A stretch of DNA of 64,000 nucleotides from Aphrocallistes beatrix (taxonomy: Eukaryota > Porifera > Hexactinellida > Sceptrulophora > Aphrocallistidae), in contig OY725489.1 in NCBI GenBank assembly GCA_963281255.1, forward strand, positions 4,030,001 through 4,094,000, in the 5' to 3' direction. How positions within the stretch are numbered: position 1 is the stretch's first letter; every line of letters begins with the position of its first letter. The notes beneath the pieces were generated by a model. That model did not search any database. It worked only from the letters and a program-made list of their open reading frames with translations, and was not told where the DNA came from. This document shows positions 26,627 to 62,639 of the stretch, one piece after another. Position numbers and translations under genes: made by a program.

Positions 26627-26671
26627 CATTAACATAACTATATGCCTTTTAGGTATATAGTTATGTTAATG
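26627..26671. repeat. 17-bp perfect inverted repeat
   Basis: CATTAACATAACTATAT and ATATAGTTATGTTAATG flank an 11-bp loop just before the piggyBac frame. It may be a microhomology scar or a short hairpin; no function is implied. Confidence 0.7.
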
Positions 26672-26673
26672 CA

Positions 26674-27536
26674 ATGTCTAGACAACGATTTTGTAATTTG
26701 TTGCGATTTCTTCGCTTTGATGATCATAGTACAAGATTAGATCGCCTAAAGTCTGATAAATTAGCTCCTATAAGGCATATTTTTGAATCCATCAAGACAT
26801 CTCTATTTGATTCGTATTATACTGGAACTTACCTGACAATAGATGAGAGACTATGTAAATACTGGGATAAATGTACTTTTAGGCAATACTATATGCCTAG
26901 GAAACCCGATAAGTTTGGGTTAAAACTATGGATATTCGCAGACTCCTTAACATGCCATCCTGTTGGCATAGAGGTGTATGTAGGGAAGCAGCAGTTACTA
27001 ATTAGTAACTGAAGTGAAGATGTAGTTGAACGTCTGATGTCTAACCTTAGATGTGGACACGTGATATGCGGTGATAATTATTTTACTTCTCTTTCTCTTA
27101 ATAAAATTTTATCTCAAAAAGGGATTTTTTATTTTAGTACTTTGAGAAAAATTAGACGAGAAGTACCTAAAGGGCTGTTGAATATCAAGGGGATTACTGA
27201 TATTCATCCAAATTTCTTTTTAATGATTCCAATACAATTTTATCCTATGTTCCAAAGAAGAACAGAAGCGTTCTTCTTTTGTCTAATATCCACCACAGTA
27301 TCCAAATAAGCGAAACAATTAAAATGAAACCCAAAATGATTATGGATTACAACAAATATAAATCCGGTGTGGATTTATTAGATCAAAGGTCAAATGCATT
27401 TAGAACATACGGGGCAACAAGAAGATGGCCTTGCGTCCTTTTCTTTGACATATTGGGGATCAGTGCATATGCTTCTTGGGTATTATTTACTATTAAACAT
27501 CCAGAGACACCATTAACTTTAAATACAAATCGATGA
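26674..27536 (+). pseudogene. piggyBac-like transposase, central part
   Basis: piggyBac transposases cut at TTAA using three aspartates. The sequence shows FCNLLRFLRFDDHSTRLDR, then YLTIDERLCKYWDKCTFRQY with the first catalytic Asp, KPDKFGLKLWIFADS, then CGDNYFTSLSLNKIL (second Asp) and YKSGVDLLDQRSNAF (third Asp), and TRRWPCVLFFDILGISAYAS. All three acidic residues survive, but a TGA (27010) breaks the frame after KQQLLISN and a frameshift occurs near 27280. The N-terminal region and Cys-rich tail are missing and no TTAA-flanked ends were found. Confidence 0.9.
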
Positions 27537-29101: not shown

Positions 29102-29139
29102 ATGACGAAGCCAAAGTTTGAGTTTGTGTTATCTTTAGC
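29102..29139 (+). pseudogene. hAT transposase fragment, upstream of the P-like insertion
   Basis: The last codons before the P-like element read KFEFVLSL and continue directly into AYLVDIFEALNKLN after it (31380 onward). The break is at the duplicated CTTTAGC. Further upstream the hAT frame is too decayed to follow with confidence. Confidence 0.75.
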
Positions 29140-29189
29140 CATAGCCTACTCTATATAAGGCCTCACAGTAACTAATGAATATTTGAACA

Positions 29190-31099
29190 TGGATGCGCAA
29201 GTCGAAGTAACTATCACAAACATTTTAATTGAATTTGTGATTCTGAAAATTTGAAGATATGAAACATGATAATTAGCACCTGACATCATGCAATAAAGCC
29301 AAAAATGGCGTTCTAATGGGTCTGTCTGTAAGAAAGATGATAGGAGATAAGAAAAGCCACAATTCTCAGATAGATAATTTGCAATTTGAGGTAACACGAG
29401 GCACGCATGCTTGAAGCTTTTAAATATCTGCTTACTTAATTTCCCACCTTTGTCAGGAAGTGACTCTCAAGCATCCAACCAATAAACGATCCGAGTTAGA
29501 AAAGTAAATTGCTCGTCATTAAACGTCAAAGGCTTAGACATCGGGTCATTCAAACGCACATGTTTATACGGTACGCCGATTTTCTACAGAGACAATAGAA
29601 TCCAAACGAAGACTGAAGTCGCAAATATGGGGTACTCGGGTCTCCAGTTTACAAATGGGCGGAAACAATATGAGAAGTTTCACATTAAGTGGAAAGTTGT
29701 CGCTTGAGATGATATGAACGAATAACCCGCAATGTTCAACATCTTTAATACAAGAGCTGATAATTGCAAATATCTTTTCAGCTGATACAGAAACGCAAGG
29801 CAATAGACGGACAATACAAGTCTATTTCTTATAAAGACTAGACACCATTATAGCGAATACAGTTTTGGTAGGATAATCGGGATCGAGATTAGAACCAAAC
29901 ACTTTGCCTTCTTTGTAAGAGATATCTGATTTGACATGTATTTCATCCATTTGGATAATAACATGCTTCTTCTCAGGAGAAAACGATTGGGTAGCTTGCT
30001 TAAGAAATGGAAGAAAATCGTTTTCAAGCCCAAAAGACGAACACAATTTTTCTAAAGTATTGAAATGGGGGAGAGATAAAGAAGAAATGCTCTGAAGATA
30101 CTTGTAGCAAGCAGGCAAAATCAGATGTGCTCTGAGGGCCAATATTTGCGTCAGTATGTTATATCTCCGCCTGTTTTTGGCCAATATTTGCGTCAGTATG
30201 TTATATCTCCGCCTGTTTTTCGGTACAAGGTTATTTTGAAGCTGACATAGAATGAATTGGAGCCTAGAAACTTCGGAACAATCATGCAATTCGTCATCTG
30301 AAACGGAATCATGGATGTTATCAATAATTTGTTGTATATGGCTTTCTGCGGATACAATATGAGACGCGTTAGAAGAATCGGTAACGGTATCCTTAGTATG
30401 GGTATATATTGGACTAGAAATTTCATCCAGAATCAATTCGAGTTGTCGGGTATCCCTTAGAAAAAATTGGGAGATGGGAACATTTTCACCCTTATGATAG
30501 GTTTTTATGGACAAATCAAATTCTAACAATAGGTAGACATCTACAAGAATTTTATAATTTTCTAAATTAGGACGAATAAAAATTAAAGTACGCTCATCTG
30601 GGTACCAAAGTGACCAGGTTTTAGGAATAGATAGAGAGGGTAGCTTATCTTATAAATCCAGGTAGCTTTTAACCACAAACCTTTCATTCTCTTCATTTTC
30701 TGACCTCTTACTGAGCGTCAATGCTTGATTGAACAGTTCATCATCCTTAGAGTCATGAGACAGACGACTGCGTTTGGTTGCGGAGTGTGAGGAATAATAT
30801 GCTGGACACCCTGGCAGGATAGATGGCACCGTACCTTCTTTCAGCTTCAGTTTTCTTCGCGGAATTTGCCGATCACTCCCGTCTCCATTCGGTACTCTGT
30901 GCGTATATTCAACATCTTCATCTCTAAATTGCTTCACGCAAACGTATACTACCTTGAGCTTATCAATATCATGCCTATAGAAAGCTCGGAGCCAAGCATG
31001 TCTAAGTTGATCTGGTGTTTGAGGCAATTTGGATACAGGAATACGCTCGTCTTTATCATAGTTACTCCTACAGCCAGGGGCAGAGCAATTGCTGGGCAT
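29190..31099 (-). pseudogene. P-element-like transposase with THAP domain
   Basis: From MPSNCSAPGCRSNYDKDE (31099), a THAP zinc finger runs to VYVCVKQFRDEDV and GTVPSILPGCPAY. The usual C-x2-H pair reads C-V-K-Q, so the zinc-binding His is Gln. A TAA at about 30650 interrupts, then the same frame continues: NRRRYNILTQILALRAHLIL, then an RNase H-like start IIQMDEIHVKSDISYKEGKV (candidate first catalytic Asp), and TKTVFAIMVSSL. A TAG at 29822 interrupts, still in frame: VHIISSDNFPLNVKLLILF (candidate second Asp). After a shift and probable deletion comes LQTDPLERHFWLY and MMSGANYHVSYLQI, holding the D-x2-E of the P family. The segment normally carrying the GTP-binding insertion looks missing. 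It cannot make a full-length enzyme as read. Confidence 0.9.
30136..30222. repeat. 42-bp in-frame tandem duplication in the transposase
   Basis: The block encoding KNRRRYNILTQILA occurs twice back to back with practically identical nucleotides. Being a multiple of three, it leaves the frame open. The lack of divergence indicates a recent event in an already dead copy. Confidence 0.85.
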
Positions 31100-31379
31100 G
31101 ATATAATTTGCAGCTAACAAAAAAATGGAAAACTCATTGGTTACAACGAAAAAAGTCAGATAAGAATCAGGTAGATGCATCGAAAATATAGAAGCCAAAT
31201 AAAAATTACATTATGAGCATATACATATCAAGCCATGTTTAAAACTTAAGGTTAATTACAAAATTTATTATTATGGAAAAATATTGTGGTTATTTAATAT
31301 ATTACCTCGAATTGTGCATCCTTGGTCAAATATTTATTAGTTACTGTGAGGTCATATATAGAGTAGGCTATGCTTTAGC

Positions 31380-32188
31380 ATACCTCGTTGATATATTTGA
31401 GGCCTTAAATAAACTCAACCAGCAGCTACAAGGCAGAAACAGCAATAGTATCTGTTATTACGATGCCATTTGAGCTTTTATTGCCAAGTTGGACTTATGG
31501 AAGCGTCGAATCTCGGATAGAAATACAGGGTCCTTTCCATACCTTGATGAATCTTTCGATGATCAACTCTTGATGACAACCTTCAACAATTAATTCAAAC
31601 TCATCTTTAAGTGCTCAGAGATGAATTCTGTCATTTTTTCCGGATATTGAAAAAGAATATGTTGAATAGAAACTCATTAGGAATCCGTATTTCACTGATT
31701 TTGAAGATGTCCCTCAGGACATACAGGAAGAGTTTTTGAATATATGAAGTGCAACTCTTCTGCAAAGGATGATTTCAACAGACTTTCGTTAGAGAACTTC
31801 TGGCTCAAATGTCTAGCCATGTATCAGAACGTTGGTCTATTTGCCTTGCGTGTTATTGTTAGGTTTTCTTCAACATATCTCAGTGAAGCTGCAGTTTCGA
31901 CACTAGTGCTCATAAAAAATAAGCACCGCAACATGATGAATATAGAAAATGATATGCGTTGTGCTATCTCTGAGACACCCCCAAGAATTAAATGAATTGT
32001 TAAAAGAAACAGTTACATCCTTCACATTGATAGAGTGGTTTGATTTAAATAGATATTCTTAATTATATTATAAAATTGGTGTGTTCTCCGAGTTTGGTAG
32101 TCTGAAAAAGTGCAGGTGTAGCCGCGTACGGGGCGCGATAATTCCATTGGCCAAGGGGGGCAAGGGGTCAAAAAGCTTTAGAACCCTG
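31380..32188 (+). pseudogene. hAT transposase C-terminal half (ZBED/FAM200-like)
   Basis: Continues from the P-like insertion site: YLVDIFEALNKLNQQLQG, stop, WKRRISDRNTGSFPYLDE, then shifted pieces (FPDIEKEYVE, YFTDFEDVPQDIQEEF). Then comes LSLENFWLKCLAMYQNVGLF and the hAT dimerisation signature FSSTYLSEAAVSTLVLIKNK with ENDMRCAISETPPRI. The right end AAAAGCTTTAGAACCCTG stops at 32188. The left end of the hAT was not found. Multiple stops and shifts. Confidence 0.85.
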
Positions 32189-32531: not shown

Positions 32532-33093
<562 letters not shown>

Positions 33094-44649: not shown

Positions 44650-45132
44650 GGCAATTAGGAAAATCAAGCTGCAAAATATTCAGCAGCTAGTAGCGTGCTG
44701 TTTGACTTAGGTTAAATAGTGTATTAGCTTGAGGATATTGAGTGATATAGCATCTACCTTGAATGAAAACCGTTATTCATGGTAGCGGTCGCACCTCTCT
44801 TGGAGAAAAAATGAGTGATTGGAGTTGTTCAAATGCGTCTTGTTTATGCATTAGAGGAGAAATGATTCTCTGATTCACTTGTAAAAGGTGTACGAAGTTT
44901 GGAAGACTGCATTCGGAACATCTCACAGCCTACGTAACTATAGCCTATTCACGGTATTTAACCATGGATTACTTCAAGTCTTATTGTCAAAATACAAACT
45001 GTATAGCATATCTACTATGATTAGCTGAAATTTAATTTAGTGTAATGAAAATATTATATATAAATTCGTTGAATTTACACATTTTGTAGGATGTGGTTAG
45101 ATACATACCTAACTGACTCAGGTCAAGTTTAA
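44650..45132. other. Geneless stretch
   Basis: No ORF or repeat recognised. A single CTATAGCCTATTCACGG at about 44939 weakly resembles the P-like terminus. Confidence 0.35.
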
Positions 45133-45362
45133 CTTAACTCATAGCCTACTACATACAGGCCATTTCACTACTTTAGACCAGGGATAAGATAAAGTCGAGT
45201 TTTTAATACAATGAAATTTAACACAATATCATTTTGATATATTTAATATCGTGTAATTATACATCCTCTACCCCACAATAATGATATTACTGACTGCTGG
45301 CATAATTTAGTTGACGGACAAGGAATACTACATAAATATATAGGTGTATAAATATACATATA

Positions 45363-46761
45363 TTAATTAGAGGTATGTTTAAGTATCTTCCTTTGAGTAT
45401 CTTTGGGACAAGAGGTGGTAGAAGTAATATTATTGGCCTTGTTGTTGAGTAAACAGATACTTGAAGTCATTAAAATACAACGGAGCATATCTTTTCCGTC
45501 AATACAGCAATCAGTACACTCAAAAGCCCAATCCTCACATTCTTCATCCTCAATTTTTAGAATATCCAACTGAGCCTCATCCAAATGCTCCAGGTGCGTA
45601 TCGAAACTGGGCGAGTGGACACATGTGTCATCAACAAATGCCTGTACATTCGGACACCCTCGTAGAGCCTGGTCTACCGCTCGCTGATAGGTAGCCTGTG
45701 AGTTTGACAATCCAAAAGGCATGCGGTTGAATTCAAACTGGCCGCGCGTTGAAACAAACGCAGTGAACTCCCTATGCTTTTCCTTCACAGGCACGCTCCA
45801 GTGTGCGGATGCCCCAACCAGTGTAGAGAATACAGTTGCCCCTCCCATACGATCGAAAACATCTCGGGGATCCGGCATCGGATAGGCATCTCACTTCGTC
45901 ACATCGTTGAGATCCCGGTAATCTACGGCAAATCGATGGGTCCCGTCCTTTTTCTTCACTAAGATCACTCGACATGCTCAAGAGGAAGAAGAGGGACGTA
46001 TGATCCCATTCTCGAGCATTTCATCTATCTGCTTGGATACCTCCGCCTCAATTTCCGGAGGAACACGCAACGGCCGGCTTCTGATCGGCCGCTCATCCAG
46101 AAGAGTGATAACGTGTTCCGCGGTTCGAATTTCGCGCGGGCTCTTCGAGTTCTCCGCGAAAACGTCTTTCCATCTCGACAGCACCTTGCGTATGGCTGTC
46201 TCTTCTCGCGGTGATAGTTTCGGGTTTATATCGAACCTGGCTTCCAAGCTATCTCCCTCCTTTCCCATCTCAGTCTGCATAATTTCTGCTCTAGTCTAGT
46301 CGTGCCGCAGCTAAAGAGGTTTTCCAACAACCACCTAGCCTAACTCTCATGTTTTCCCAATCGAAAGTAGTATTCTTGAAGCGCGCGAGGAACCTTCGTC
46401 CCAATATAACCACCATATTGTTAGTATCGAGTACTTCGATTTCGTGTTCTAGTGGTAGACCATCCCCCACATCTATCGCCACGCAGGCCGTATCACAGAC
46501 CGCAAGCGCTGTCCGCCCTATCCCATACTCTTGACTGTACTTTGTGCTGTAAGGGATATTCATCTTTTGTACGGTGCCTATGTCCACCACCGAAGGATCC
46601 GCCCCCGTGTCCATCATTACATTGCTGGGTTTGCCGTTCCATTTAACTGGTACCACAACCGCTATGCTGCGTCGTGGCCTGAAGTCGCAAATAAAGCACC
46701 GACCCTTCTTAGGGAATCGGCTTGCCGGATACTTCCTTGTAGGTCCATCCCGCCTCCCCAT
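45363..46761 (-). pseudogene. Ty3/gypsy protease and partial reverse transcriptase
   Basis: 46761-46291: a retropepsin with MMDTGADPSVVDI (DTG active site) and VVILGRRFLARF. Then in another frame (46280-45978) comes the pre-RT linker (ITLLDERPIRSRPLRVPPEI, IDEMLENGIIRPSSS). 45960-45560 hold RT blocks: VILVKKKDGTHRFAVDYRDL, MPFGLSNSQATYQRAVDQAL and FVDDTCVHS. RT then breaks off and the frame runs on into unrelated Cys-containing sequence (WAFECTDCCIDGKDMLRC) to a stop at 45363. RNase H, integrase and LTRs are absent. At least one stop and one frameshift. Confidence 0.87.
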
Positions 46762-46789
46762 TGCCCCTTTGCTGCGTGGCGCATCCTTA

Positions 46790-47562
46790 CAGGGTGGCTT
46801 TTAAGTTCTTTCCCAAGCTTGATTAGGTATAAAATTTCTTATACTAAAACAATCTTAGTTATTATGGTCTTTAGAGATTGTAATTCAAATATTCTCAATG
46901 ATTTTAAAAGATTTTTCGAGTCTAAGACCTAGAACTGTGTTTTGTATGGTGAGTTTTGTTGAGAAAATATGTGTCCTGGCGCGCAGCGAAATTCGAGAAA
47001 CGGGGCCCGCTGCTTTTCAAATTATCATTCTAGAGTCTTCAAATTCTTGGACAAATTAGCTCTCACATTTTCCTCGAACACTCAATTTGTAGAAATATAG
47101 GCTGTTTAGATCAGTATATATTGAGAAACATTTGGATCAGATTTTTGGTGATGTGAAAAAAAGTGCCATTTTGGGTGATTTTACAAAATATACCTAATTT
47201 GAACACGCGAAATAATAACTACTATATCTCGTTTCTGATAATGAATTCAATGGATTTGTGAAATAATTCCATGGTGAATGAAAGGTATCTGGTGCTAAAT
47301 CGTCATGGAACATCGATTATAGAGACATGTTTTACAGAAGCAGTGGCCCTGTTTCTCGAATTTCGCTGCGCTCCAGGACACATATTTTCTCCACAAAACT
47401 CACCATACAAAACACAGTTCTAGGTCTTAGACTCGAAAAATCTTTGAAAATCATTGAGAATATTTGAATTACAATCTCTAAAGACAATAATAACTAAGAT
47501 TGTTTGTGTATAAGAAATTTTATACCTAATCAAACTTGGGAAAGAACTTAAAAGCCACCCTG
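46790..47562. mobile_element. Complete CAGGGTG-family foldback, 773 bp
   Basis: CAGGGTGGCTTTTAAGTTCT pairs with AGAACTTAAAAGCCACCCTG; TA flanks both sides (46788-46789, 47563-47564). The arms pair for most of the length around about 47180 (AGATTTTTCGAGTCTAAGAC with GTCTTAGACTCGAAAAATCT). Non-coding. Partial relatives are at 18475, 22972 and a lone end near 57999. Confidence 0.92.
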
Positions 47563-47871
47563 TATATGTATGGATACAGTTGAGAGCTAACATTCAAGAA
47601 CAAATAGAACGTAAAAGTTAAAAGGAACCATATAGCAGAGAAAGAAAATAGCCATAACATTGATATATAATTTATTGGAACGTAGACTAGTTTCATATAG
47701 TTATGCATCAAACAAATGATGAATTAGATTTGGAACAAAAATTATTTATTCATATTATGGGTGCGTAAGAAAATCCACTTTATCTTATCCCTGGTACCAT
47801 GGGAAATTGTTCAGTGAAAAGGCTTTATTGTAGTAGGCTATGCTTAACTATATTTTGCCATGGGTGCCTTC

Positions 47872-48076
47872 CAGGGGTTTATCTAGGTGCTCGGTCGGCA
47901 CTTATAGGTGCCAGCCTGGTATCGTCCGAGGAGCCAAGGTGCTTGCAGTGTGATTCGATTTTGGTCCCGGGTTGCTATCACCCCTGGAATTACAAGATAA
48001 ACCACTGTTTGGGTGCCATATAGCTTTTATCACCTCCAAAAAAGTGCCGGATTGGAAAATCCTAGATAAACCCATG
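47872..48076. mobile_element. hAT-type MITE with perfect 8-bp duplication
   Basis: Ends CAGGGGTTTATCTAGG and CCTAGATAAACCCATG; GTGCCTTC flanks both (47864-47871, 48077-48084). 205 bp, non-coding, GC-richer than its surroundings. Confidence 0.92.
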
Positions 48077-54050: not shown

Positions 54051-55480
54051 TCCTGAATATCAAAACTCGATTCATGTTTGTGTGTATATACGTATATACG
54101 TATCAGAAAGCTGATTTTTTGGTTATGCTCCACTAAGTTCTTAGCTCGGAAGAAAATGTCGACTCATCATGGAATTATGACGCCATTGTCACCTTTTTTA
54201 TGATTATAAATTTCAGTTTTTCGACCATAACTCAGTCGTTATAAGTGATAGATGGCTAAAATTTTAAAATAATGTGTATACATAGCCTACTCTAATAATG
54301 CCTCACAGTGGACTGAAAATTATGGACTAGGGATGAGGTAGCAGCCGAATGGATTAATAAATGATTAGCCTAAAATCATTGATCATGCCGAATAGGAATT
54401 AAGAATGTATTACAAGCTTATATAAACATGGTATCAAAGTGCATATATCCGTTGGAAAATTTTGATTAGTCATCATATCATTTCGCAATAGGTCATTCTA
54501 TGGACAATTTTAGCGATTTTCTAAGCTGTTTTAACCATATTTCTAAATGGTATTGAGGTATGATTTTTGTGTAGTTAATTTAAAAATTTAGAATGTTTCA
54601 ATTGAATGTTTTTACATTCCTGCGTTGTTATGGTTAAGCATCTTGGTCAGTTTGGGTCATTTCGTGTAAACTGTAGTAACTAGATCTTCAAATATGATCG
54701 TGTTTGATAGGCAATGGACTACTTCTTATTAGGTGATAATATAACTTGAACTTCTAAATTCAACGAGTTTTGAGGTATGGGTTAAATTTAAGAATGTAAC
54801 CAAAACAATAAATTGTCGCAAAATTCTAGTCTGCGAATTCAGAAGTTTAAATTGTATCATTACCTAATAGGAAATAGCCAATTCCCTATTGTAATACGAC
54901 CAAATTTGAAGATGTCCAGTGGTATTCGCTTAATAACAAGTCGATTTTTGCTCGAAATTATAACCTACTAATAGATGAATATTTGCTGTTAAAGCAATTG
55001 CTAATATGATTAAAACAGCTTCGAAAATCGCCAAAAATTATCCTTAGAATGAACTGTTGCACAATGATATGATTACTAATCGAAATTTTGACAACGGATA
55101 TATGTACTTTGATGCCATGTTTATATATGCTTGTAATACATTCTTAATACCTATCCTACATGATTAACGATTTTAGGCTAATCGTGTATTAATCCATTCG
55201 GCTATTACCGCATCCTTGGTTATTTTATTGTGAGGTATTATTGGAGTAGGCTATGGTGTATATTAATTAATTAATTAAACCCCGCGCTTGGCGAGGTGTT
55301 TTGTAGGGTCATTTCCTGTTTAAGCTATTTTGGGCGGGGAAGCCATACAAGAAGTTTGGGATCTGACTATAAATAGAAAAAATCACTTAGCCAACCGCAG
55401 GTATATTTCACATATGATACAACTATCAACAAAAATGATGATTCATCACTCTGCTACGACGTCATCATTACGCAAAAAAA
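54051..55480 (+). mobile_element. Helitron, interrupted, tail missing
   Basis: Head TCCTGAATATCAAAACTCGA after A (54050). Body GTCGACTCATCATGGAATTA to ATAAGTGATAGATGGCTAAA (54270). The body resumes at about 55408 with TCACATATGATACAACTATC and GACGTCATCATTACGC. Between them lie a P-like palindrome (54281-55255) and a further piece of other DNA. The GC-rich tail is not reached. Confidence 0.7.
54281..55255. mobile_element. P-like palindromic MITE with perfect 7-bp duplication
   Basis: Ends CATAGCCTACTCTAATAATG and ATTATTGGAGTAGGCTATG, followed inward by CCTCACAGTGGACTG and ACTAGGGATGAGGTAGC. GTGTATA is on both sides (54274-54280, 55256-55262). The 975-bp arms pair around 54800. Non-coding. It sits inside a Helitron body. 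Confidence 0.93.
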
Positions 55481-55598
55481 ATTATCCGCAATCATCTGAA
55501 AGTTCAAATAATAGATTTCAAAACCGAAAACCGATTATAGTCCCGAATGAACAACGAGATCGTGCCAACTCACCTTTTCTGATAGTCCGATTTCGGTA

Positions 55599-55798
55599 NN
55601 NNNNNNNNNNNNNNNNNNNNNNNNNNNNNNNNNNNNNNNNNNNNNNNNNNNNNNNNNNNNNNNNNNNNNNNNNNNNNNNNNNNNNNNNNNNNNNNNNNNN
55701 NNNNNNNNNNNNNNNNNNNNNNNNNNNNNNNNNNNNNNNNNNNNNNNNNNNNNNNNNNNNNNNNNNNNNNNNNNNNNNNNNNNNNNNNNNNNNNNNNN
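55599..55798. other. Assembly gap, 200 N
   Basis: Same length as the gap at 1156-1355. It removes the left end of the next palindrome. Repeats on both sides probably defeated assembly. Confidence 0.95.
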
Positions 55799-56762
55799 CA
55801 GCATATATAAACATGGTATCAAAGTATATATATCCGTTGTCAAAATTTCGATTCGTTATCATATCATTGCGCAACAGGTCATTTTAAGCACGATTTTGGC
55901 AATTTTCTAAGCTGTTTTAACCCTATTTCTAAGTGATATTAAGGTGTGAATTTTGTGTAGAACTAAGATTAGTACGAGTTGATTTGAAAAATTTAGAATT
56001 TTTCAATGGAATGTTGTTACAATCCTGCGTTGCTATGATAAAGCATTTTGGTCAGTTTGGGCCATATCCTGCAAACTGTAAGAACTAGGTATTCAAATTT
56101 GATTTTATTTGATAGGCAATTGGCTACTTCCTATTAGGTAATAAAACAATTTAAACTTCTAAATTCACAGACTATAGAGATATGCGACAATTTAGTGTTT
56201 TGGTCACATTCTTAAAATCAACCCATAACTCAAAACTCGTTGAATTTAGAAGTTCAAGTTATATTATCACCTAATAGGAAGTAGGCCATTGCCTATCAAA
56301 CACGATCGAATTTGAAGATCTAGCAACTACAGTTTGCACGAAATGGCCCAAACTGACCAAAATGCTTTACCATAGCAACGCAGGAATGTAACAACATTCC
56401 ATTGAAAAATTCTAAAATTTTCAAATCAACTCGTACTAATCTTGGTTCTACACAAAAATCACACCTTAATACCATTTAGAAATAGGGTTAAAACGCTTAG
56501 AAAATCGCTAAAATTGTCCTTAGACCTGTTGCGCAATGATATGTTGACTAATCGAAATTTTTCCAACGGATATATGTACTTTGATGCCATGTTTATATAT
56601 GCTGGTAATGTTTATATATGCTGGTAAGTTTATATATACTGGTAAGGCTATTCTGCATGGTTAACGATTTCAGGCTAATCGTGTATTTATCCATTCGGCT
56701 ATTACTTCATCCCTAGTCCATGATTTTCAGTCTACTGTGAGGCATTATTAGAGTAGGCTATG
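55799..56762. mobile_element. P-like palindromic MITE, left end in gap
   Basis: The right end is TTATTAGAGTAGGCTATG (to 56762), with CCTAGTCCATGATTTTCAGTC inside it as TAGTCCATGATTTTCAGTCT. The arms pair around 56190: ATTTGATAGGCAATTGGCTA on the left with TAGGCCATTGCCTATCAAA on the right. It is a close relative of 54281-55255. Its left terminus and duplication cannot be seen. Confidence 0.85.
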
Positions 56763-58465: not shown

Positions 58466-59607
58466 TAATACTTGATTGCGTGGCCTTTCATTATTTTAAT
58501 TTCATTCAATCGTTTCGATAGTGTTCTGTATAAATCTCAAAACGTTTCGATCGGGAATTTTTCTCACTCTTCTTTTAGAACGTCTCGGAACTCGACTAGA
58601 GATTTCGGTTGGAACTTCTTCCACCTTACATTTCTGAGTAAAATGTCCCATACGCTTTCGATAGGGTTTTGGTCGGGTGATTGTGGAGGCCATACCAATT
58701 TCTTTATTTTTTTCGATCCAAACCACTTGTCTACAATTTTTGCTGTGTGACATGTAGCATTCTCCTGTATGATTAAGGGGGCTTTTTCTTCCTCCGAAAC
58801 TTTCCCCAGAAAATTTTGAATGGTTCTAAAATAATAGATATATACAGTTGAGAATTTAAATTACCCTTAACTTCAATCAACGGACCCATTTTATCATAGG
58901 AAATGCATCCCAACACAAGGGAACCTACCGCTGGGTTGAAACAAATTAAATCTGGATTCATCTGAAAATATTATGACTTTACAATCCTTCATTACCCAAA
59001 ACCTATGGTTGTTGTAATAGTCTAACCTTTTAAGTATGTTATTTCTTGTTATCAGTGGATTTTTACAAGGTTTGTGTCCGCGAAAACCCTGATAATGCAG
59101 ATTACGCCTCACAGTCTTTTGAGAAACAGAAACTTGTCTGCCAGTATTGAAAAGTTCTGTAATGCTTCGTAAACAATTGGTGCTATTATTTTTCACAATA
59201 GTTTTCAACTGACGTGAAGCCCTAAGAGAAATAGATTTACGTCGCCCAGTCCTTGTCTGATTCATCGTTGAACCGGTCTTTTTATACTTTTGGATTATAT
59301 AATATATTGTAGTGTACATCAAGAATTGTGGCGATTTCTCGAATCGACTTTCCTCCTCTTGAAAGGCCTGCAGCTTGATTCCTCAGAGCCAGCGAGATTT
59401 CCTTGGATCGGGGCATTATGAAAATATAATTGCTACATGTAAATTTTAAAGTTATAATTGAAGTCATTAGGCAATTCCAAATAAGAGAGTATTCAATATA
59501 AGTCGATCTCTTCAATATACAATATTGTAAACTACTATGATTATTTAATATTTTTCATCATGGGATAAAAAAAAGATCACTGTTGAAATACTTTTGTCAG
59601 CTTAGTG
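58466..59607 (-). pseudogene. Tc1-like transposase and one terminal repeat
   Basis: The right end, reverse CACTAAGCTGACAAAAGTAT, ends at 59607 beside TA. The protein reads MPRSKEISLALRNQAAGLSR (start about 59416), a shift, TRTGRRKSISLRASRQLKTI, VSVSQKTVRRNLHYQGFRGH and VIIFSDESRFNLFQPSGR with the first Asp. Then comes ENATCHTAKIVDKWF, where the usual DN(A/D) Asp is Glu, and LVWPPQSPDQNPIESVWDIL with the third acidic residue. Two stops lie in the tail, and GHAIKY ends at about 58470. The left terminal repeat was not found. Confidence 0.88.
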
Positions 59608-61239: not shown

Positions 61240-62639
61240 ATGGCTTCTTGTCCTAATTACTCTGAAATTGAGCAACGGACGTATGTCAAATTTCGCACTA
61301 CAGTACACCCTCGCTAATCCGAATAGCTTTATACCAATGATCTAAAAAATCGTTCGGATTAGTGTATTTGTTCCGATTAGTGAAATAACACTAATTCAAT
61401 GGGGTATTAACTATAAAAAATTTGAATTGTTAGAATATTAGGATAATATTTTGTTATAATTACTTCTTTAATGAGGTTTCTCAATCTTATTGAAGTGTAT
61501 AATATTATAAACGTTGATTTAAAGCATAGAGGCGAAAAAGATTATATTTCGGGTGTTTGGATTGTAAGAATGAAGTGTCCGGATTAGCGAGGAATCGGAC
61601 TAGCGAGGTTCGGATTAGCGAGGGTGTACTGTATCCTCGAAATCCTTCCAAAGTATATTTATGAGGAGCTGGCAATGATATGTGGAGAAGATTCTCTATC
61701 ATATTCAACAGTCAGAAGATGGGTAAACCTGTTTAGGGAAGGTAGGGCCTCTGTCCAAGACGCCCCTCGTCCTGGAGCACCAAAACTGGCGACCAACAGT
61801 GGCAAAGTGAGTGAGGTAAAGGAATACGTCGACTCTTTCCCCCATTCTTCGGTTGAGAACGTAGCTAACAATGTTGGCATTTCAACGGGAAGTGCACACG
61901 CGATTCTGAAGTCGGAGTTGGAACTGAGGAAGGTCCAAGTGCGATGGGTACCACATTGCCTAACTTCTCCACAAAAGGCCGCTAGACTCCAAATTGCCAA
62001 GGAAAACCTCACAATCTATGAACGGTGTGACCCAAGACAGTTATTAGAGATAGTAACAGGGAATGAAACTTGGATACAATTCAAGCCACCGATCAGAAAA
62101 CAAGATGGCAGGGTATGGCTGAAAAAAGGAGAGATGCCCCCAGCTGTTTGTGTGTCCGACTTTCGTGCTCCGAAGGTCTTATACTGTATATTTTTCGATG
62201 GGCTAGGGCCCAGATCTCTGTTCCCAAAGGCCAAACACTTACTGGACAATTCTACGCTGATGTGGTGTTACCTGAGGTTAAGAAATCGTACTTTAAGCGT
62301 CGTCCAAAGACTGGAACACGCGGTCTCAAAATTTTGCATGATAATGCCAGACCACATAAAACTTTGGCTGTCAGGCAGAAAATTAAAGATATGGGTATGC
62401 ACGAAGTCCTGCATCCACCTTACTCCCCTGATATAGCCCCATGTGACTTCTGGCTGTTCAGAAAACTCAAAGATCACCTCTCTGGACGAGAATTTGAAGA
62501 TCAGCTCAGCCTTGGTCGGGCAATTTTCCAATACCTCGAAGTCATACCCAAGGATGAGTATAGGAAGACGTTTGAAAATTTGATTAAAAGGCTAAATTCT
62601 GTTGTAAAGTATAAAGGAGATTACTTTGAACATTCTTAG
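61240..62639 (+). pseudogene. Mariner transposase, split by a MITE
   Basis: Starts MASCPNYSEIEQRTYVKFRT (61240). The MITE sits in the next codon, and the frame resumes as ILEILPKYIYEELAMICGED. SYSTVRRWVNLFREGR and GISTGSAHAILKSELELRKV are the helix-turn-helix pair; RWVPHCLTSPQKAARL follows. The first catalytic site reads VTGNETWIQF, with Asn where mariners have Asp. A shift at about 62230 leads to VPKGQTLTGQFYADV, LHDNARPH (second Asp) and YSPDIAPCDFWLF (third Asp), ending YFEHS at 62639. MITE, frameshift and the Asp-to-Asn change each suffice to inactivate it. Confidence 0.93.
61301..61631. mobile_element. Pogo/Tigger-like MITE, 331 bp, inside mariner
   Basis: CAGTACACCCTCGCTAATCC and GGATTAGCGAGGGTGTACTG ends, TA on both sides (61299-61300, 61632-61633). 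Same length as 16298-16628. Its removal with one TA rejoins the mariner N-terminus. Confidence 0.95.

Follow-up and report, generated by a model that had tools for sequence, protein, structure and literature searches.

The P-superfamily element and its insertion site

The window, the whole 64,000-nucleotide stretch analysed here (G000:C2:4030001-4094000 of a 28-contig genome of 100.5 Mb), contains a P-superfamily element of 2,233 bp at 29140..31372, delimited by its ends, its target-site duplication (TSD) and a tblastn match to the transposase of a relative, L040. The transposase is encoded on the minus strand. Terminal inverted repeats of 71 nt occupy 29140..29210 (plus strand) and 31302..31372 (minus strand) and are 89% complementary to each other, and the 7-bp sequence CTTTAGC stands directly outside them on both sides (29133..29139 and 31373..31379). 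These features bear out the exact ends and 7-bp duplication proposed by the first-pass annotation. The repeats have CATAGCCTAC as their tip on the left (29140-29149) and its reverse complement on the right (31363-31372); given these tips, the outer 8-mers differ (TCTTTAGC versus CTTTAGCA).

Relics of a hAT transposon, both on the plus strand, lie to the left (29120..29139) and right (31380..32028) of the insertion. They were recognised by alignment with L150, the one hAT paralogue aligned across the whole stretch; the right relic also gives a weak Pfam match to Dimer_Tnp_hAT (E 0.1). Joined with a single CTTTAGC, the flanks read ...FVLSLAYLVDIFEALNKLNQQLQG..., and a query of 47 residues spanning this junction returned 56 matches, the best of which beyond the window is L150 on C1 (72%). 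At the DNA level, L150 matches the joined flanks at 71% over 671 columns, covering 20 nt to the left of the junction and 649 nt to the right, ungapped at the junction and with a single CTTTAGC. Counted along this alignment, 17 of the 20 nt on the left are identical, and no hAT homology was seen in it further to the left. Since L150 has CTTTAGC once, at an ungapped junction, the second CTTTAGC arrived with the insertion. The element therefore lies within a hAT sequence that is restored when it is removed with one CTTTAGC, as had been claimed, and CTTTAGC is not a repeat of the hAT itself. A long AAT-type trinucleotide microsatellite lies beside the hAT relic, at 32540-33000 of the window and beyond. 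A search of the whole window with Rfam at gathering scores gave no match.

Transposase remains in the window copy

The transposase starts with an ATG at 31099. The first 149 codons (30653..31099, minus strand, as are all coding parts below) contain a THAP domain (Pfam E 2.1e-10; weak matches to DUF5647, PcF and Acyltransf_C in the same piece were under the Pfam cut-offs and were ignored) and end at an in-frame TAA, codon 150 (30650..30652). A 275-aa open stretch follows (29825..30649), in which the RNase H-like domain begins and which holds the first catalytic Asp codon (29947-29945), as well as a 42-bp tandem duplication (30137..30220) that adds 14 residues in frame. It is closed by an in-frame TAG, codon 426 (29822..29824), after which an 85-aa open stretch (29567..29821) carries the remainder of the N-terminal half of the RNase H-like part and the second catalytic Asp codon (29701-29699). 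The first-pass annotation placed two stops between the THAP domain and the RNase H-like part; there is only one, the TAA, and the TAG falls within the latter, beyond the first catalytic Asp. The Pfam match to the RNase H N-terminal domain in this broken copy (E 2.7e-4) is under the Pfam cut-off.

The C-terminal part of the transposase lies at 29209..29619. The tblastn comparison with L040 gives two matches, to residues 1-482 (64.5% identity) and 599-738 (65%), and the gap between them marks an internal deletion junction at 29603..29619. Residues 483-598, which are missing from the window copy, correspond approximately to the region of the GTP-binding insertion domain (GBD; residues 491-612 in the relative L066). 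All three catalytic codons (D, D and E) survive, the last (29313-29311) out of frame. With premature stops, the 42-bp tandem duplication and the loss of the GTP-binding domain region, the window copy is unable to make a complete transposase.

Transposases of related copies

Relatives elsewhere in the genome have open frames that run through the conserved region without stops: L040 (908 aa, open at the end of the locus), L049 (804 aa) and L066 (813 aa). All three contain a THAP domain (Pfam E 5.8e-14 to 8e-11) and an RNase H N-terminal domain (E 1e-8 to 1.2e-13). L040 aligns over residues 307-726 with the Drosophila P transposase (PDB 6p5a; whole-sequence E 5e-5), and, as counted along this alignment, its D368, D450 and E704 fall on D230, D303 and E531, which the available sections of the P transposase report give as the catalytic triad (PMC7776569). 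The assignment of the window element to the P-type THAP transposases in the first-pass annotation is upheld by the two Pfam domains and by this alignment. The sequence evidence confirms that the window family should be placed in the P superfamily in the broad sense (P, 1360, Galileo and THAP9).

The GBD is matched less consistently in these proteins. The Pfam GBD model matches L066 (E 6.6e-6) and neither L040 nor L049, with the region being aligned in L040. The same sections of the P transposase report list K385, K400, V401, S409, F443, D444, N447 and D528 as GTP contacts (PMC7776569). K385 cannot be placed in L040; of the seven contacts that can, V401, N447 and D528 are identical, while K400, S409, F443 and D444 are replaced by N, H, W and K, a placement that is reliable around QNVKL and IFN and less certain in other parts at this level of identity. 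Among the three open-frame proteins, N (400) and W (443) are invariant, while position 409 is H, N or C and position 444 is K or R. Because four contacts are unmatched and the GBD model matches only one of the three relatives, the mechanism of this family may differ from that of P in the GTP step.

Length of the target-site duplication

Copies used to measure the duplication were selected by both exact tips or by an end-to-end match to a palindromic copy, never by their flanks. The sample was made up of 20 regions on C1, from about 28 pairs spotted by eye among the first 100 CATAGCCTAC places listed, together with 20 of the 40 copies scored in one palindrome family and 10 of the 40 in another. 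Copies already counted (L005, L044 and L063) and two cross-pairings (L086 329-3969 and window 54281-56762) were excluded. An exact 7-bp duplication is present in 49 of 57 copies, and none of the 57 is exact at 4-6 or at 8-11 bp. Addition of L060 and L062, which were outside the set of 57, brings the count to 51 of 59; the eight others comprise four with one mismatch at 7 bp, one with two, and L072, L083 and L088 with six, four and four, respectively. When left and right flanks were taken from different copies, 3,192 such pairings gave four matches at 7 bp and none at 6 or 8. Five of the six transposase-bearing copies with both ends (the window copy, L059, L060, L062 and L081) are exact at 7 bp; the remaining one, L075, differs at two positions. 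The check on other copies thus yields 7 bp, not the 8 bp of the P element, and the 7-bp duplication is a property of the sampled family. Families with other tips are under-sampled, since most copies were chosen by exact CATAGCCTAC tips; near some transposase loci there are sequences that differ from the tip by one or two bases (e.g. CATGGCCTAC in L040 and L050).

Target site preference

Pooled over both strands, the 49 exact sites show the consensus TA-n-[GTTNAAC]-n-TA with A/T-rich flanks. On a single strand, the letters of GTTNAAC lead in all six informative columns of 51 sites, with TA at -3,-2 in 30 of these sites and at +2,+3 in 24. The sites match GTTNAAC at a mean of 3.25 of six positions, whereas 7-mers drawn from their flanks match at 1.71 on average (z 10.5). 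Other motifs scored z 7.5 (GTCNGAC), 5.2 (GTANTAC, the motif of Galileo) and -3.4 (CAANTTG); since other palindromic motifs also outscore the flanks, GTTNAAC is to be regarded as a preference rather than a strict site. None of the 11 distances at which single sites were compared with shuffled pairing for self-complementarity showed a clear excess (16 versus 19.0 shuffled at distance 2, for instance, and 31 versus 28.8 at distance 6), so the target palindrome is a trait of the average site.

Family size, palindromic copies and a subterminal motif

The CATAGCCTAC 10-mer occurs 1513+1469 times on the two strands of the genome, versus 49+50 for the reversed control, and a pattern of 28-30 nt describing the ends occurs 604+596 times (1,200), versus 0+0, which points to roughly 600 copies or more. 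A protein search of the genome with the RNase H-like part gave 154 matches, pieces being counted separately, on many contigs and with many long open frames.

Most of the elements examined, 22 of 28 distinct ones, have no transposase match. Ten of the 28 are palindromic from end to end (83-95.5% identity to their own reverse complement), none of these ten has a transposase match, and many near-complete palindromes measure about 1.04-1.08 kb. In one palindrome family, all 40 scored copies match the query both ways round. The six transposase-bearing copies that were measured have inverted arms of 31-133 bp. Among the matches listed, ends of 58 bp (90-93%) are common to the palindromes L069, L070, L073 and L077 and the transposase-bearing L059, L062 and L075, and 59 bp of end (83%) to the palindrome L078 and the transposase-bearing L081.

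The pattern A[AGT]GGAT[AG] is common to most of the aligned ends: of 58, 55 have it begin between 35 and 75 nt from the tip, in the same orientation, and none has it there in the opposite one. In the window copy, it is represented by ATGGATG (29189..29195, plus strand) and AAGGATG (31317..31323, minus strand), each 50 nt from its end. As controls, 8 of 352 interior stretches contained the pattern, and 200 shuffles gave on average 2.0 of 58, with a maximum of 6. The ends are related and the pattern was picked after they had been viewed in alignment, so the counts cannot be taken as independent. By its position, the motif is a candidate transposase-binding site.

Some copies appear to be associated with one another. 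A palindromic copy at C2:1176391-1177470 (L133/L134) has the 7-bp duplication CCATAGC, after which its right flank continues with CTACT; a family match of 60 bp adjoins it at C2:1177472-1177531, and by its look this copy was inserted into the tip of another family member. In the window, 54281-56762 comprises two elements of the CATAGCCTAC end type with long inverted arms, which appear to be nested or fused; a separate 7-bp duplication, GTGTATA, belongs to 54281-55255.

Comparison with known P-superfamily elements

An 8-bp duplication is what is normally given for P elements, whose ends start with CAT. The element 1360 is also named Hoppel or ProtoP. In the available sections of the respective reports, which are the basis of all comparisons below, 8-bp TSDs are given for the Drosophila P element (with GTCCGGAC; PMC3276498, PMC7776569), the P elements of Anopheles gambiae (PMC1562414) and zebrafish Pdre2, which has ends of CATACCTGTCAAC and a THAP transposase (PMC10983969). 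A 17-nt stagger is reported for cleavage of the P donor (PMC7776569). On the other hand, 1360 of Drosophila melanogaster has a modal TSD of 7 bp (274 of 279 sites) with the motif GTTNAAC (PMC3276498), and Galileo, also of the P superfamily in Drosophila, has a 7-bp TSD, rarely 8, with the motif GTANTAC (PMC4168063, PMC2775673) and long foldback-like ends (PMC3688188).

The window family shares with 1360 the superfamily, the 7-bp TSD and GTTNAAC, the likeness being one of TSD and motif only; the host differs, and kb-long palindromic derivatives are abundant in the window family. With Galileo, as far as the cited sections describe it, it has in common the 7-bp TSD, an AT-flanked target and foldback-like non-autonomous copies. 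However, GTANTAC fits its sites less well than GTTNAAC, and the arms of Galileo measure 0.5-1.2 kb, much longer than those of the six transposase-bearing copies measured here. The Drosophila P element resembles it in the THAP domain, the RNase H-like DDE triad and the homology to L040, and differs in its 8-bp TSD and in the four of seven placeable GTP contacts that are unmatched here. Zebrafish Pdre2/THAP9 likewise has ends beginning with CATA and a THAP transposase, and the Anopheles gambiae P elements and P-MITEs likewise include non-autonomous relatives that share ends (PMC1562414); both nevertheless differ from the window family in making 8 bp.

The suggestion that 7 bp would set this family apart holds with respect to P, Anopheles P and Pdre2, and does not hold with respect to 1360 and Galileo, whose 7-bp duplications, as given in the cited sections, refute it as a novelty for the superfamily (PMC3276498, PMC4168063, PMC2775673). 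As none of 57 copies is exact at 8 bp and 49 are exact at 7, the window family falls outside the strict definition of an 8-bp P element, and its mode of insertion resembles that of 1360 and Galileo. Open-access full texts that pair "P element" with "7-bp TSD" concern Galileo. Among the open-access literature matches listed, none described a P-type family with 7-bp duplications from a host other than Drosophila, in a search that other wordings escape and that lies apart from Repbase. What is new is the extent of the expansion in what appears to be a non-fly animal, the kb-long palindromes sharing ends with transposase-bearing copies, the common subterminal motif, the differences at GTP contacts, and a related family that contains retroelement protease and reverse transcriptase sequence.

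The occurrence of a very abundant 7-bp family with the motif of 1360 in what seems to be an animal other than a fly would mean that duplications of this length extend beyond Drosophila. Its many close natural insertions offer material to find what sets 7 versus 8 bp in the transposition complex, and comparisons that exploit the differing GTP contacts could test what GTP does in P-type transposition.

Origin of the element and alternative explanations

With a probability of about 0.94, we regard the window element as one dead member of a large cut-and-paste family of the P superfamily: it has undergone an internal deletion, and it had inserted into a hAT transposon older than itself. This reading draws on the ends, the duplication, the empty site, the 7-bp length across the family, the target preference, the domains, and the catalytic residues as placed by alignment. 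Most likely, the transposase of the open-frame relatives would use its THAP and HTH parts to bind the GGATG-type subterminal site and the CATAGCCTAC tip, and its RNase H-like DDE site would cut the element out. Both ends would then be joined to the target strands with a 7-bp stagger, at a preferred TA-n-GTTNAAC-n-TA site, and host repair would produce the 7-bp duplication. The same transposases would also mobilise the non-autonomous copies, including the kb-long palindromes.

Two alternatives concern the junction itself. An 8-bp P element could seem to have a 7-bp duplication through one miscalled or mutated terminal base, and the 8 bp made by P, Anopheles P and Pdre2, as well as the CATA start that Pdre2 shares (in the sections cited above), would fit such an error. 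However, 49 of 57 copies are exact at 7 bp and none at 8, and the hAT empty site gives separate evidence of where the junction lies, which makes this explanation extremely improbable. CTTTAGC could instead be an internal repeat of the hAT, with the inserted stretch not a single transposition unit: it does lie within hAT-coding sequence, where the left homology is short. We give this idea almost no weight, since L150 has one CTTTAGC at an ungapped junction and the same ends are found with other 7-mers in other copies.

Other alternatives concern what the family is. The CATAGCCTAC palindromes could derive from another superfamily and resemble the tips of the P-type copies by chance, considering that so many distinct elements (22 of 28) have no transposase match and that foldbacks occur elsewhere, as with Tetris, which is assigned to Mutator in the accessible part of its description (PMC4079207). 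The palindromes nevertheless share ends of 58-59 bp with transposase-bearing copies among the matches listed, show the same 7-bp TSD, and carry the subterminal motif, which was found in 55 of 58 ends of both kinds, so we hold a separate origin to be very unlikely. It is also barely conceivable that some of the THAP-RNase H frames are host THAP9-like genes, and the window copy a relic of one. THAP9 genes exist in animals, according to the available sections of PMC7776569, and several of the genomic frames are long and open, but a single-copy gene fits badly with the inverted repeats and TSD of the window copy and with 154 matches (pieces counted) scattered over many contigs.

With the window element taken as a dead P-superfamily copy, a broader scenario can be put forward tentatively, though we doubt that all of its parts hold together. 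The 7-bp duplication and GTTNAAC might be a heritable trait of an old, pre-fly branch of the P superfamily beside the 8-bp P/THAP9 branch. In this genome, the branch would have an altered GTP pocket (400, 409, 443 and 444 unlike P), with strand transfer perhaps not needing GTP in the manner of P, and would drive large palindrome families and at least one family with retroelement protease and reverse transcriptase cargo.

Other elements in the window and genome

A second element with CATAGCCTAC ends lies at 45140-47842 of the window and has the 7-bp duplication CTTAACT. It contains a retroelement protease at 46294-46800 (Pfam gag-asp_proteas, E 1.6e-7) and a reverse transcriptase at 45366-45890 (RVT_1, E 1.1e-12), both on the minus strand. 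No direct repeats of at least 20 nt were found in window 45000-48000. Of the forty places scored for this element, one is the window itself and the remaining 39 match it at 93-97%; 34 of all forty start at the exact end. We infer that it represents retroelement sequence moved as P-type cargo. Within it, a 220-bp inverted repeat (96%) is found at 46788-47564. This part is likely a secondary insertion, because positions 1650-2424 of the element are matched at only one other place among the matches listed (C17:3113905-3114656, 87%).

Remains of other DNA transposons are also present. Fragments of a piggyBac-type transposase occupy 26653-27533 (DDE_Tnp_1_7, E 8.7e-21 for 26653-27009; the continuation at 27201-27533 was judged by eye). 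A piece of a Tc1-type transposase lies at 58897-59382 (HTH_Tnp_Tc3_2, E 2e-11), and a mariner-like piece at 61588-62433 (HTH_29, E 4.6e-7; HTH_48, E 3.9e-4, under the cut-off). Elsewhere in the genome, the 17,996-bp contig C28 (L155) is mitochondrial. Among PDB chains, an 861-base piece of COX1 in it has its best matches in mammals (1occ, E 7e-140), followed closely by a plant chain (7jro, E 2.8e-135) and more distantly by yeast chains (6giq, E about 1e-116). The features of fly COX1 and the number of contigs speak against a fly, while the genetic code points to an animal, probably a bilaterian: the COX1 piece reads TGA as Trp and has six AGA codons, several of which are presumably at places that are usually Ser.
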